This document shows positions 5,960 to 21,940 of a stretch of DNA of 64,000 nucleotides, piece by piece. Below the pieces are notes generated by a model. The model had not been told where the DNA came from. It saw nothing but the letters and a program-made list of their open reading frames with translations, and searched no databases. Origin of the DNA: Bacteroidota bacterium (GTDB lineage Bacteria > Bacteroidota > Bacteroidia > Cytophagales > Cyclobacteriaceae); the NCBI GenBank assembly GCA_018266055.1, contig JAFDYT010000015.1, positions 62,001 through 126,000 on the forward strand, read 5' to 3'. A program made the translations under genes and the position numbers. Every line of letters begins with the position of its first letter. The first letter of the stretch is position 1.

Positions 5960-8683
5960 ATGCCCCGCAAACTCCTCACCTTCGTTATTGCAATTCTCTT
6001 TGTGTCTGTCGCTGTAGCGCAGACTAAAGTCGCCGACCTGCAAACAGAAAACACTACCAACCCGATCGGCCTTGGCACTGCCCATCCGCGCTTCGGCTGG
6101 AAGATCGTGTCCACCAAAAGAGCGGTGATGCAAACTGCTTATGAAGTGCAGGTCAGCACTACACTCGCAGGCCTTTCAAAAGGCGCCGTGTGGAACTCTG
6201 GCAAAATCACTTCTGATCAATCGGTGTTTGTGGATTATAATGGTGCGGCACTTCAATCGACCACGCGCTATTTCTGGCGTGTGAGAATATGGGACGAAGC
6301 CGGCAAAGCCACCGCGTGGAGTGAACCGGCATTCTTTGAAACAGGGTTCCTCTCTCCTGCCGACTGGAAAGCCAAATGGATTGAATCAGGATTACCCGGC
6401 GACATTGTGCTTGGCGCAAGTCCTTATTTCCGCAAGGTGTTTGACGTGACTAAACCTATCGCTTCGGCGCGACTCACCATCACCGCGCACGGCATGTACG
6501 AAGCGTCGATCAACGGCAAGCGCGTAGGCGATGCCTACCTCACGCCCGGATGGACCAGCTACAAAACACGCTTGCAATACCAGGTGTACGACGTTACGGC
6601 GTCTGTAGCGCAAGGCAAAAACGCCATCGGCGTAATCCTCGGCGACGGCTGGTACCGCGGCCACCTGGCGTGGGAAGACAACAAGAATTTTTACGGCAAC
6701 AAACTCGGCGTACTCGCACAGCTCACTGTCACCTACAGCGACGGCACTTCAGAAGCAATCGTCACCGACGACCAATGGAAAGTACGCACCGGCCCGATCG
6801 TAAGCTCCAGCATTTATCATGGCGAAGTGTACAACGCGCAACTGGAAATGCCCGACTGGAACAAAGCTTCGTTTGATGCGTCGGCATGGACACCGGTGAC
6901 TGTGAAAGACTTTCCGTTCACAAACCTGACGGCCAGCGAAAGTGCCAACATCACCAAACACGAAACCTTCAAACCGATCAAGGTGATCACCACACCCAAA
7001 GGAGAAAAGGTAATCGACTTCGGGCAAAACCTTACGGGATGGGTTCACTTTAAGGTATCCGGCGCGAAAGGAACGCAAGTGACGATACGTCACGCCGAGG
7101 TGCTCGACAAGAAAGGAAATTTTTATACCGACAATCTGCGCGCGGCAAAAGCAGAAGTACACTATACACTAAAGGGCAATGGCATTGAAAGCTATGAGCC
7201 TCGCTTTACGTTCTTTGGCTTCCGATATATTCAGATCATGGGGTATCCCGGCGAAATCACCGCCGATAATTTTGAAGCGATCGCATTGTATTCCGACATG
7301 AAAGGCACGGGGCAGTTCTCGTGCTCGAATGCGTTGGTCAATCAACTGCAACACAACATTCAATGGGGCCAGCGTGGCAACTTCCTTGACGTGCCCACCG
7401 ACTGTCCGCAGCGTGATGAACGCCTCGGCTGGACGGGCGACGCACAGGCCTTTGCGCGCACCGCCACGTTTAACTTTGACGTCGAAAACTTCTTTGCTAA
7501 ATGGCTGAAAGACCTCGCGGCCGATCAGCAACCCGACGGACGAGTGCCGTTTGTAATTCCTAATGTACTCAAGCCCGCCGACGGAGGTTCTGCGGGCTGG
7601 GCCGATGCCGCCACGATCATTCCGTGGACGATGTATGTCGCATACGGCGACAAGCGGATTCTGGAGGATCAGTACGCCAGCATGAAATCATGGATTCGCT
7701 TCATGCAAACCAACAGTACTGACAACCTGTGGAACAAAGGATTTCATTTCGGCGACTGGCTTTTCTACCGCCCTTTTGATGACAACGACGGACGTTCGGC
7801 GGTGACCGACAAATACCTGATTGCACAATGCTTCTATGCGCATTCTCTGGACCTTACCATCAAGACAGCCAAACTGCTCGGCGCGACAGACGATGTAAAC
7901 CAATACACCGCCTTGCTGGAGAAAGTAAAAGCTGCTTTCATGAACGAATACGTCACACCCAACGGCCATCTGGTGTCAAGCACACAAACGGCTTATGTGC
8001 TGGCGTTAAACTTTGACATGCTACCCGAAGGCATGCGCAAGCAAGCGGCAGATTTTCTGGTGAAGAACATCAAGTCGTACGGCACACACCTTACTACAGG
8101 TTTTCTTGGCACACCGTATCTCACGCACGTGCTCACACGCTTTGGCTACACCGACGTTGCCTATCAACTGCTTTTGCAGGAGTCGTATCCGTCGTGGCTG
8201 TATCCGGTGAAACTCGGAGCCACTACGATCTGGGAACGGTGGGATGGTATCCGCACCGACAGCACCTTTCAAACTCCGGGCATGAATTCTTTTAATCACT
8301 ATGCCTATGGCGCCATCGGCGACTGGCTGTATCGTGCTGCCGCAGGCATTGACACTGACGAGGAAGGCGCAGGCTATAAACACATCAATATCCACCCGCA
8401 TATGGGAGGCGGGTTTTCCTTTGCCAACGCAGAGCTGAACACACATTATGGTACCGTGAGTGCCCATTGGAAAACTGACAACGGCACCTTCACACTCACC
8501 ATCGATGTGCCTGCAAACACCGTAGCCACGGTTTATGTACCCGTGTTAACACCGGAGTCCATCACGGAAAGCGACAAGGCACTCAGCACGTCTAAGGAAA
8601 TCAAAGTGCTGGGAAAAGCCGACGACGCCACGATGCTGCAGGTGGGTTCGGGGCATTATACGTTTGCTGCTAAACTGAATTAG
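5960..8683 (+). CDS. Alpha-L-rhamnosidase, GH78 family
   Basis: 907 residues with a signal peptide (1-20, AVAQ). The order of domains is that of bacterial GH78 enzymes: N-terminal fibronectin/beta-sandwich domains (about 25-130), a rhamnosidase N domain with the WK(A)KWIE motif near 140, a concanavalin-like domain, the (alpha/alpha)6 catalytic barrel, and a C-terminal beta-sandwich. The catalytic motif DCPQRDERLGWTGD starts at D481, with conserved E487, and a WERWDG motif lies later in the barrel. It releases L-rhamnose from rhamnosides, probably in the periplasm. It is the first gene of the rhamnose operon, and its stop codon directly abuts the start of the transporter gene. Confidence 0.95.
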   Translation: MPRKLLTFVIAILFVSVAVAQTKVADLQTENTTNPIGLGTAHPRFGWKIVSTKRAVMQTAYEVQVSTTLAGLSKGAVWNSGKITSDQSVFVDYNGAALQSTTRYFWRVRIWDEAGKATAWSEPAFFETGFLSPADWKAKWIESGLPGDIVLGASPYFRKVFDVTKPIASARLTITAHGMYEASINGKRVGDAYLTPGWTSYKTRLQYQVYDVTASVAQGKNAIGVILGDGWYRGHLAWEDNKNFYGNKLGVLAQLTVTYSDGTSEAIVTDDQWKVRTGPIVSSSIYHGEVYNAQLEMPDWNKASFDASAWTPVTVKDFPFTNLTASESANITKHETFKPIKVITTPKGEKVIDFGQNLTGWVHFKVSGAKGTQVTIRHAEVLDKKGNFYTDNLRAAKAEVHYTLKGNGIESYEPRFTFFGFRYIQIMGYPGEITADNFEAIALYSDMKGTGQFSCSNALVNQLQHNIQWGQRGNFLDVPTDCPQRDERLGWTGDAQAFARTATFNFDVENFFAKWLKDLAADQQPDGRVPFVIPNVLKPADGGSAGWADAATIIPWTMYVAYGDKRILEDQYASMKSWIRFMQTNSTDNLWNKGFHFGDWLFYRPFDDNDGRSAVTDKYLIAQCFYAHSLDLTIKTAKLLGATDDVNQYTALLEKVKAAFMNEYVTPNGHLVSSTQTAYVLALNFDMLPEGMRKQAADFLVKNIKSYGTHLTTGFLGTPYLTHVLTRFGYTDVAYQLLLQESYPSWLYPVKLGATTIWERWDGIRTDSTFQTPGMNSFNHYAYGAIGDWLYRAAAGIDTDEEGAGYKHINIHPHMGGGFSFANAELNTHYGTVSAHWKTDNGTFTLTIDVPANTVATVYVPVLTPESITESDKALSTSKEIKVLGKADDATMLQVGSGHYTFAAKLN

Positions 8684-20267: not shown

Positions 20268-21242
20268 TCAGAATACCGGAACAGGTTCGTGATCATAAAT
20301 CGGTCTCATCCGTTCTTCGATGTAATCCACTAGATCAACGTGCGGATCAAAGCCCAACACATTGATTGGGTCATTAACATAATTGGATAAGGCGATGATG
20401 TTGCAGAAATACAATTGGTCGTTCACAGCGCTTGTGACGTATTCTACTGCGCCGGCATCAAGTCGAGCAGCCTTTGCAATACGCAAGGCGTCTTCTACTA
20501 TTTTCTGTGAAGGAGAATAGGCTTCGACACGAATGGCATTGCGGTTATTTTCATTCGACCAATGATTTGCCGATCCGTATGTCAGTTCCGAGGGTCGCAA
20601 GTTGAAGCTTTCGCTTCGGGTATGAATCTTTACGGCGTAGAGGAACTTACCATTCAGAGTTTCGATCCTGACTATGGTATTTTCTTTAGCTGGAATATAC
20701 TCCTGAACTAACGCCGTATGATCGCTACCCAAATTGATCTGGTGAAGATCGATCGCTTTCTGCAGATTACCGATCGACCCGAAGCGCAACACGCTGGCCA
20801 CACTTCCTGAAAGATTTACCTTGATAACAATAGGAAAACGAAGAGCCAGCGCCGCCGGAAGGATTTGATTCACATGGTTGACGATGCGTGTTTTAGGAAA
20901 AGGCAATCCCAAGGAAGCGAGTAGTTCTAGCTGCTTAGCTTTTGAGCTTTCTATTTCCTGCGCAGCCGTTCCATTGATCACTGAAACGCCAAGTCGTTCC
21001 ACATGCGACAAATAGTTGGCCGAGTGAAACACACCTTGAGAATTCCCCCGAAGGTAGGCCGACGAGCTCACACGGTTTACCACCAGGTTATAGGGTACTT
21101 CGCGCTCTGCAGGATTGTATTGATGGTTGGCAGCATGAATGCGAACGAAAGGAATTCTTCTCTTTTCTAATTCTTTAAACAAGGGCTTGAACCAGGCCGG
21201 GTGCTCATAAAAAATACCGATAGGGCGTTTGGATATACTCAT
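20268..21242 (-). CDS. ATP-grasp (RimK-like) protein with atypical active-site motifs, SAM-riboswitch controlled
   Basis: 324 residues. An N-terminal RimK-like domain with NRVSSSAYLRG (56-66) and VINGTAAQEIESSKAKQL (88-105) precedes the ATP-grasp core: Lys141 in PIVIKVN, a hinge VQEYIP (179-184), and a late ALSNYVND motif (284-291). Two key sites differ from what I know of the family. The Gly-rich loop reads LSGSVASV (144-151) where relatives have several glycines, and the metal site usually of the form D/E-x-N reads C280-N-I-I. The enzyme may be inactive or changed in chemistry. The substrate is unknown; relatives add amino acids to peptides or small acids. It is preceded by its own promoter, a SAM-I riboswitch and a possible 42-codon ORF, and followed by a strong terminator. 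Confidence 0.8.
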   Translation of the reverse strand: MSISKRPIGIFYEHPAWFKPLFKELEKRRIPFVRIHAANHQYNPAEREVPYNLVVNRVSSSAYLRGNSQGVFHSANYLSHVERLGVSVINGTAAQEIESSKAKQLELLASLGLPFPKTRIVNHVNQILPAALALRFPIVIKVNLSGSVASVLRFGSIGNLQKAIDLHQINLGSDHTALVQEYIPAKENTIVRIETLNGKFLYAVKIHTRSESFNLRPSELTYGSANHWSNENNRNAIRVEAYSPSQKIVEDALRIAKAARLDAGAVEYVTSAVNDQLYFCNIIALSNYVNDPINVLGFDPHVDLVDYIEERMRPIYDHEPVPVF

Positions 21243-21353
21243 AATACAGAAATTAAGGAGTTAATGATTTTGAATTTTGTTGCGAAGAGAGAAAAGAAAG
21301 AAGGAGGAGTCCCAAACTCTACCAAAGAAAAGAATCACCTCCCCTTTCCAGAC

Positions 21354-21482
21354 TTAACAACAACAACTTTGATTAAGACGATTCGAGGCCGTGTGGCCCG
21401 GTGTATAAATGACGGCGCTTACAGCGAAGCGCGAGGGAAATTTGATTTTCCCGTTGATGCGATTTTTCAAATGCTTTTTCAT
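21354..21482 (-). CDS. Possible small ORF ending in Cys-Cys-Cys
   Basis: 42 codons, starting at an ATG nine bases after the 3' strand of riboswitch helix P1. The product is basic, starts MKKHLKN and ends NRLNQSCCC. The three cysteines come from a short GTT-type repeat. The stop lies 111 bases before the ATP-grasp start. A peptide encoded between a SAM riboswitch and an ATP-grasp protein would fit a modified-peptide precursor or a regulatory leader peptide. Against this, the stretch holds two 6-base-pair hairpins (GGGAAA/TTTCCC at 21434-21451 and GCGCTT/AAGCGC just after), so it may instead be structured untranslated leader. I do not recognise the sequence. Confidence 0.28.
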   Translation of the reverse strand: MKKHLKNRINGKIKFPSRFAVSAVIYTPGHTASNRLNQSCCC

Positions 21483-21490
21483 AACAATCA

Positions 21491-21597
21491 ATTTATAGTT
21501 CCCCATGTGTGGGCAGGTTGTGGCACTTATTCAGGTATTGCTACCAGAAAGTTGCCAGAGGATCTTTGAGCCTGTCTCTCCCCTCTTCTTTATAAAT
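21491..21597 (-). ncRNA. SAM-I (S-box) riboswitch
   Basis: The minus-strand leader folds as a SAM-I aptamer. P1 pairs ATTTATA (21597-21591) with TATAAAT (21497-21491). P2 pairs AGAGG (21586-21582) with CCTCT (21561-21557) and carries an inner GAG/CUC helix where the common form is GGG/CCC. The P2 loop CAGG (21574-21571) can form the pseudoknot with CCTG (21517-21514), where the common form is CUGG/CCAG. The conserved GGCAAC follows P2. P3 is GGTA-GCAA-TACC (21545-21534). The J3/4 region reads AAGTGCCACAACC, and P4 is CCCA/TGGG (21513-21502) followed by GGAAC. Two covarying helices plus all conserved single-stranded blocks make the call strong. It binds S-adenosylmethionine and normally represses when SAM is plentiful. 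Confidence 0.88.
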
Positions 21598-21603
21598 ATG
21601 ATG

Positions 21604-21633
21604 TAAAGGTAATACAATTTTTAAATAAGTCAA
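21604..21633 (-). promoter_or_regulatory. Bacteroidota promoter of the riboswitch/ATP-grasp unit
   Basis: On the minus strand TTG (21633-21631), a 19-base spacer and TACCTTTA (21611-21604) match the primary sigma consensus TTTG-N19-TAnnTTTG with one change in the -7 box. The predicted start falls at about 21598, exactly where helix P1 of the riboswitch begins. Confidence 0.75.
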
Positions 21634-21940
21634 GTTACTCTATCGGTTTTATAGATTATTATTCTATTTTTTTACCCTGCTGCTTTGTTCAATGTTTCCT
21701 CTCGAATTTCACTAAATTTAATGGTGTCTGGGACTAAGCTATTACGAACCCTAGACATCAAGCTTAAAACGATTGCACCCATAGCGCCGGCTAAAATTGA
21801 AAGCAAAAGTCTTCTTCATTTAAGGCCAAAGCCACATGACGAAAGTCTTGCCGCAACCCTGTTTTTGATCATATAGGATAAAAATAAGGCTGCGTTATTT
21901 TGTATAGTAACAATGAAGTAACCGATTAACCACAAACCCT
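21634..21940. other. Intergenic region upstream of the CoA-transferase
   Basis: About 307 bases between the divergent riboswitch promoter and the CoA-transferase gene. A minus-strand frame (21872-21672, 66 codons) encodes a hydrophobic stretch LLLSILAGAMGAIVLSLM but is broken by one in-frame TGA after 18 codons, so it is at most a decayed small membrane protein. A plus-strand open frame over the same bases looks like its antisense shadow. No clean promoter for the CoA-transferase was found; a TTATTTTG at about 21895 is the nearest candidate. Confidence 0.4.

Follow-up and report, generated by a model that had tools for sequence, protein, structure and literature searches.

Short leader open reading frames (ORFs) rich in cysteine codons have been described before actinobacterial cys/cbs operons (PMC1262725; also Canestrari 2020, as cited by others). 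As given in the accessible part of PMC1262725, these ORFs carry their Cys codons near the stop codon and precede sulfur genes without a conserved terminator, and Rho-dependent control was suggested for them, hairpins being absent there too; translational attenuation is cited elsewhere for M. smegmatis. The proteobacterial uORFC-8-2, located before cysS, also has tandem Cys codons in a leader ORF, at which stalling is proposed when Cys-tRNA is low (PMC8632094, accessible part). A riboswitch and a translated upstream ORF (uORF) stand in one leader in the B12 riboswitches of M. tuberculosis (PMC11260477, accessible part), and two inputs act through one leader in the tandem riboswitches that form a Boolean gate in purine metabolism (Sherlock 2018, by its title).

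The locus analyzed here lies on the minus strand of a 64,000-nucleotide stretch of DNA (the window) and consists of a SAM-I (S-box) riboswitch aptamer, a poly-Cys leader ORF and a RimK-like ATP-grasp gene. It shares with the SAM-I family (RF00162) the helices, the pseudoknot, the core sequence and a score well over the cut-off, and it differs from the family in that the first ORF past the aptamer is a leader ORF and not the regulated gene, that no terminator is enriched, and that the gene encodes an ATP-grasp protein and is not a met gene. With the actinobacterial Cys leaders it has in common the short ORF, the Cys codons near the stop codon, the position before sulfur genes and the lack of a conserved terminator; however, the accessible text on those leaders describes no riboswitch and gives some of them as leaderless, whereas here the ORF is at a fixed distance from SAM-I and in another phylum. 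The uORFC-8-2 leader, as far as its report is accessible, differs in its proteobacterial origin, in having its own terminator structure and in having no riboswitch. In the accessible part of the M. tuberculosis report, nothing is said of the B12 leaders carrying a run of amino-acid sensor codons, and their ligand and geometry are other than those found here; the tandem arrangement of Sherlock 2018 comprises two aptamers, in contrast to one aptamer and one codon sensor in the present case. A combination of SAM-I with a Cys leader ORF was not found in the open full text that was searched (titles and abstract openings, with most subscription papers outside this scope). SAM-I and Cys leaders are each known; the combination appears to be new as far as the open literature shows.

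The SAM-I aptamer was assigned to positions 21490 to 21598 (minus strand) from an Rfam scan and from covariation. With cmscan, RF00162 matched over its full length (model positions 1-108) with 67.3 bits (gathering cut-off, 44.4; E = 1.6e-13), and this was the only gathering-level Rfam match within the 64-kb window; the SAM-I identity proposed in the sequence-only reading of this DNA was thus borne out by the covariance-model search of the minus strand. For covariation, 32 aptamers of the order were aligned (4 outer pairs were tested for P3); because its members were collected as matches to the family, this alignment is biased in favour of the structure. Standard pairs were found in 97.8% of the 819 cells of the tested helices and the pseudoknot, changes on both sides were found at 18 of the 26 pairs (0 of 500 shuffles reached 18), and pairing fell to 33-46% in the slid-register controls. 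The helices and the L2-J3/4 pseudoknot therefore hold as that reading had drawn them, and the paired changes to which it had pointed were recovered as double changes, at 3 of 3 pairs in the inner P2 helix (GAG/CUC) and at 3 of 4 pairs in the pseudoknot (CAGG/CCUG). Judged by its sequence, the aptamer is a genuine SAM-I aptamer, and SAM binding is predicted. Both strands of P1 (Rfam scan and alignment) consist of A/U only: the 5' strand is at 21591 to 21597 and the 3' strand at 21491 to 21497 (both minus), the latter 9-15 nt 5' of the leader start codon. Two further SAM-I aptamers are present in the same genome, before a metY-like and a metH-like gene (genes recognized by eye).

The earlier observation that no methionine gene lies downstream is literally true, but it misses a leader ORF of 42 codons that ends with Cys-Cys-Cys-stop (21354 to 21482, minus strand; ORF reading, with ORFs of the same kind in relatives). 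It is the first ORF 3' of the aptamer and precedes the ATP-grasp gene; its start is at 21482, after a gap of 7 nt, the three terminal Cys codons (TGT TGT TGT, from the ORF reading) are at 21357 to 21365 (minus), and the stop codon ends at 21354. The translation is MKKHLKNRINGKIKFPSRFAVSAVIYTPGHTASNRLNQSCCC, for which no match was obtained among the NCBIfam models. In the same genome, a Cys run also occurs in the short ORF that follows the SAM-I aptamer of the metY-like locus (...NACCCMKFRC), and no Cys-run ORF was found at the metH-like SAM-I locus. The poly-Cys pattern had 61 matches in this genome versus 42 for the reversed pattern, and among the 30 of the 61 that were scanned, none besides the window ORF was taken by eye for a leader. 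The poly-Cys match at L299 (near L298) was rejected as a leader, as it appeared inside a long gene region.

The comparison of homologous loci that the sequence-only reading had proposed was performed within the order, where SAM-I is present in 120 of 146 genomes. The best 150 SAM-I matches were used (several per genome, with uneven sampling of families). A poly-Cys ORF was scored under a strict rule (a short ORF with 3 Cys within 5 residues that starts between 5 nt before and 60 nt after the end of the aptamer), which underlies the counts out of 150 and the count for ATP-grasp loci with SAM-I (see below), and by which near misses such as L045 (...GCKRCC) are negative. A looser rule, which also admits CC, at most 3 residues and CC, was used for sets of 39 ATP-grasp leaders or 93 leaders overall, from which loci with an unclear gene start were excluded. 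Under the strict rule, a poly-Cys ORF was found in 59 of the 150 matches, a count that related genomes inflate; dinucleotide shuffles gave 1.8 on average and never more than 5 (30 rounds). Runs of Cys (59 loci) exceeded those of Leu (24), Ser (18), Phe (15) and Ala (14). The 59 loci span 10 families of the order (hand tally), with Cys at the ORF end in 42 of them and the leader start 7-11 nt 3' of the aptamer in 52. A short tandem-Cys ORF in the leaders of sulfur genes, recurring 3' of SAM-I across relatives, was thus what the comparison returned.

The downstream genes of the 150 loci were classified as blastp clusters named by eye from the sequences (the NCBIfam run covered the ATP-grasp neighbours only). 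The poly-Cys ORF was found in 33/50 metY/B loci versus 0/43 metH loci (Fisher's test, 6e-13, with counts that are non-independent among related genomes), and in 6/7 cysH, 5/7 amino-acid permease, 2/2 sulfite reductase, 2/2 ATP-grasp, 1/1 TauE-like, 2/18 metX, 0/4 metK, 0/4 homoserine dehydrogenase, 0/1 cysK-like and 8/11 other loci; the strict rule accordingly left 17 of the 50 metY/B and 16 of the 18 metX loci as negatives. Outside the order, no poly-Cys ORF was found in 50 SAM-I loci (high-scoring matches, 22 of them from the same class). These data support a tie of the poly-Cys ORF to the SAM-I aptamer, in both position and occurrence, before predicted sulfur-assimilation genes and not before metH. 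As for the strict negatives, the metX loci L037, L039, L132 and L156 have short ORFs 7 nt past the aptamer with a two-Cys end, and the metY/B loci L027, L031, L036, L129, L133, L135 and L175 have short ORFs 9-10 nt past the aptamer with no Cys run. The latter ORFs may serve other sensing, or may have lost the cysteine input.

The ATP-grasp loci were compared separately (best 80 of 428 confirmed candidates, including those from Planctomycetes, Acidobacteria and others). SAM-I was found upstream in 44 of these best 80 loci (model R1), and the poly-Cys ORF (strict rule) in 36 of the 44 versus 1 of the 36 without detected SAM-I, for some of which the upstream sequence extends to only 89 (L103), 236 (L066) or 396 nt (L092). 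In the single exception, L084, the sequence begins inside the aptamer. Six of the 8 strict negatives with SAM-I keep Cys-containing ORFs at that place (L045, L076, L077, L085, L089 and L091), and in L047 and L068 no Cys-containing ORF was found there. ATP-grasp homologs were present in 7 of 57 relatives, and in 5 of these SAM-I precedes the gene. The ATP-grasp gene had been regarded as an unexpected member of the regulon; it is indeed not a met gene, but since SAM-I precedes 44 of the best 80 homologs, the gene is a recurrent partner of SAM-I.

An ATG at 5-13 nt past the aptamer was found in 43/50 metY/B versus 1/43 metH loci (best 150), and in 12 of these 43 metY/B loci the short ORF at this place has no Cys run. 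An ATG at this distance was also found in 11/50 loci outside the order, in some of which the register is wrong, and in L210 (metX) the gene itself begins 9 nt past the aptamer. The P1 core was TTTATA in 58/59 poly-Cys loci and CTTATC in 37/43 metH loci; as TTTATA was also found in 16/16 metX and 14/17 metY/B loci without a Cys run, the P1 type marks the aptamer group and not the Cys ORF alone. Rough duplex energies of P1, calculated for typical strands, were -1.5 kcal/mol for the poly-Cys type versus -7.1 kcal/mol for the metH type. In the 93 leaders (looser rule), A was found in 86% at position -14 of the leader start and in 60-78% at -13 to -10, and this A-rich stretch (-14 to -10) is the site of the P1 3' strand. 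In Flavobacterium johnsoniae, which belongs to the same phylum, there is little base pairing from about -20 to +20 of start codons and initiation is tuned by structure, and the phylum is without Shine-Dalgarno sequences (PMC6847099, accessible part). Given such weak pairing from -20 to +20, closure of P1 upon SAM binding would put a helix in a favourable position for blocking the leader ORF; blocking of its translation by P1 closure is what we infer from this placement.

The coding character of the leaders was examined with 27 leader pairs from the looser-rule set (equal length, at least 65% identity; the pairs overlap). Cys was kept at 150/155 positions and other residues at 490/803, although the retention of Cys is partly built in because the leaders were chosen for Cys runs. 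Differences by codon position numbered 185, 212 and 250, and the changed codons comprised 318 nonsynonymous and 103 synonymous ones. The peptides thus evolve freely outside Cys, and the case for translation rests mainly on the reading frame and the Cys codons. This is what would be expected if the Cys codons were the only part of the leader that matters, and it is unlike the pattern of a conserved peptide product.

Between the leader ORF and the gene, the spacers are 61-390 nt long (93 leaders), and conservation was poor in those of 19 Hymenobacter loci. In the window, a hairpin followed by a T-rich tract was found at 21295 to 21349 (minus strand, -18.8 kcal/mol); as a possible terminator it is not above chance (z of the stretch, -0.02 versus shuffles). 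A terminator-like hairpin was also detected inside the leader ORF of the window, at 21415-21432 (pattern scan; 2 in the region versus a shuffle mean of 0.6). Terminator attenuation as a general mechanism was rejected: hairpins of -6 kcal/mol or lower were found in 18/39 ATP-grasp leaders and in 48% of shuffles. A helix between the Cys codons and a downstream complement, noticed by eye in the window and in L001, was rejected as well, with RCARCA in 17/93 spacers versus a shuffle mean of 14.8 and duplex energies of mean z -0.35 (7/93 below -2). Enrichment was seen for the control pattern YTGYTGY (30/93 spacers versus a shuffle mean of 17.8 and a maximum of 22). The C-over-G excess wanted by the Rho model was found in 87/93 spacers, but this excess resembles that of leaders without Cys ORFs, and a Rho reading from the C-rich spacers was not retained. 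As neither enrichment nor conservation was found for a trp-type terminator/antiterminator or for a sequestering structure after the Cys codons, we do not propose attenuation of the trp type. The unconstrained fold of the whole leader of the window had -90.7 kcal/mol (2/100 shuffles were as low), and in this fold the P2 purines pair with a downstream pyrimidine tract, by which the aptamer is broken.

We consider it fairly probable that these elements form a two-input 5' leader, in which the SAM-I aptamer is followed by a poly-Cys leader ORF and then by a sulfur-related gene, and in which SAM gates the translation of the leader ORF. In this mechanism, bound SAM would close the weak, A/U-only P1, the 3' strand of which is about 9-18 nt 5' of the leader start codon, over the initiation region of the leader ORF, and the ORF would be left untranslated; at low SAM, ribosomes would enter and translate the leader, and, if charged Cys-tRNA is also low, they would stall at the terminal Cys codons. 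The stalled ribosome would allow the downstream gene to be made, and the gene would be on only when SAM and cysteine are both short. The stalled ribosome could do so by denying Rho access, by preventing a terminator from forming or by making the start of the gene itself accessible; our first guess, weakly held, is Rho. The more general proposal is that the riboswitch licenses the codon sensor rather than the gene, with SAM deciding whether the poly-Cys leader is translated, such that a two-metabolite AND gate for sulfur assimilation would operate in Cytophagales; to this we assign an even chance.

Alternatively, the two controls could act in series: the aptamer would have an expression platform of its own, through which it acts on transcription or on the main gene, attenuation at the poly-Cys ORF would be separate, and SAM would not gate translation of the leader ORF. 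Both elements are known to work alone, the spacers would leave room for another platform, and the pairing of the P2 purines with the pyrimidine tract could be an alternative structure; however, the fixed distance of 7-11 nt and the tight co-occurrence at the ATP-grasp loci both speak for direct coupling, and no conserved platform was found 3' of the leader, so that we regard two independent controls as unlikely, if still worth serious consideration. That the short Cys-rich peptide is itself the product, namely a substrate, a carrier or a metal-binding peptide modified, for example, by the ATP-grasp protein (as with graspetides or LysW-type carriers), is suggested by the fold of this protein, whose structural neighbours include LysX/ArgX, RimK and the graspetide ligase PsnB. 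We judge this very improbable: metY, cysH, sulfite reductase and permease genes are likewise preceded by the ORF, its sequence is unconserved outside Cys in the close pairs, and L084 is the only ATP-grasp locus without detected SAM-I that has it.

It could also be that only the aptamer matters and that composition, or selection on the RNA sequence, has given rise to the Cys-ending ORF as a by-product, with which the freely varying peptides and some metY/B loci, where the ORF at this place has no Cys, would agree. The excess of poly-Cys ORFs over shuffles and their absence from the 43 metH loci run against this, and we give such a by-product hardly any weight. Under the preferred reading, that of SAM-gated leader translation, two classic devices of RNA control, an aptamer for a metabolite and a leader ORF for an amino acid, would be united in a compact module that has been used many times; the phylum is described as being without Shine-Dalgarno sequences (PMC6847099). 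A response to cysteine and SAM is then predicted for metY, cysH, sulfite reductase, permease and ATP-grasp genes, and a response to SAM alone for metH. The arrangement would provide a simple genetic test case for whether a riboswitch can gate the translation of a sensor ORF, and the SAM-I regulon would gain an uncharacterized ATP-grasp family, often beside an SfnG-like gene.

The gene predicted to be regulated in the window (20268 to 21242, minus strand) encodes a RimK-like ATP-grasp protein of 324 aa, as assigned from Pfam, a structure model and an alignment. PF08443 matched with 29.4 bits (cut-off, 21), and the structure model (mean pLDDT 80) was nearest to ArgX, LysX and RimK (TM 0.75 by query, with 3vpb; 15% identity). 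Of 91 columns with at least 95% conservation among 80 homologs, the protein departs at 15, including three glycines near 145-150 as well as D281 and N283; in the leave-one-out analysis the median number of departures was 0, and the next worst were L068 (11) and L047 (9). The loop glycines and DxN residues of the subfamily, which we take to be catalytic in this family, were sought in the window protein and found to be changed: S145, V148, S150, N281 and I283 stand in place of G, G, G, D and N, which are present in 79-80 of the 80 homologs. The window protein may therefore be inactive or changed in function, as judged from the alignment. These residues have been lost while the leader of the gene stays intact.

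In 49 of the best 80 ATP-grasp loci, including 32 of the 44 with SAM-I, a gene of the SfnG-like monooxygenase cluster lies 3' of the ATP-grasp gene, on the same strand and no more than 3.6 kb away. One representative (L058) matched TIGR04021 (SfnG dimethylsulfone monooxygenase) with E = 1.2e-73 and 248.5 bits, which is below the curated cut-off of 382.95, and the neighbour is thus named SfnG-like only. With SAM-I and SfnG-like neighbours, the setting in relatives looks like sulfur scavenging. A search of the window's own genome for the SfnG-like gene, performed without a positive control, gave no match, and the genes after the ATP-grasp gene in the window (DUF1800 and DUF1501) are not the neighbours found in relatives. 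In L048, L049, L050 and L052, a second SAM-I aptamer without a Cys ORF was observed near 8100-8230, a few kb 3' of the ATP-grasp gene, where it immediately precedes a cystathionine gamma-synthase/lyase-like gene.

Upstream of the aptamer, a promoter-like element was assigned by eye at 21604 to 21633 (minus strand), with TTG at 21631-21633, a 19-nt spacer and TACCTTTA at 21604-21611, from which transcription would start near 21600. We take this TTG/TACCTTTA pair to be of the Bacteroidota -33/-7 consensus type; a sigma-70 scan gave no minus-strand site in 21200-21900. It is plausible that the start from this putative promoter matches the start of P1. Farther 5' of the promoter, a palindrome, TCTAT-N7-ATAGA (21639 to 21655, no strand assigned), was found by locus comparison. 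It occurs 51-58 nt 5' of the aptamer in 9/45 ATP-grasp/SAM-I loci (the window, L045, L047, L048, L049, L050, L052, L055 and L068), all of which are from Cyclobacteriaceae, Flammeovirgaceae or other Cytophagales (Cyclobacteriaceae-like); the arms have 9-10 of 10 matches in these 9 loci and 8 or fewer in the other 36. The single match in the window is by itself not above chance, and the only other exact site of this genome is inside a coding ORF. From its recurrence at this position, the palindrome is a possible candidate operator. Similar palindromes were noticed by eye before ATP-grasp copies without SAM-I (L009 and L012). In many Hymenobacter ATP-grasp loci (for example, L065, L070 and L078), a hairpin of about 9 pairs, CAATTCTTT...AAAGGATTG, was observed by eye between the promoter and the aptamer.
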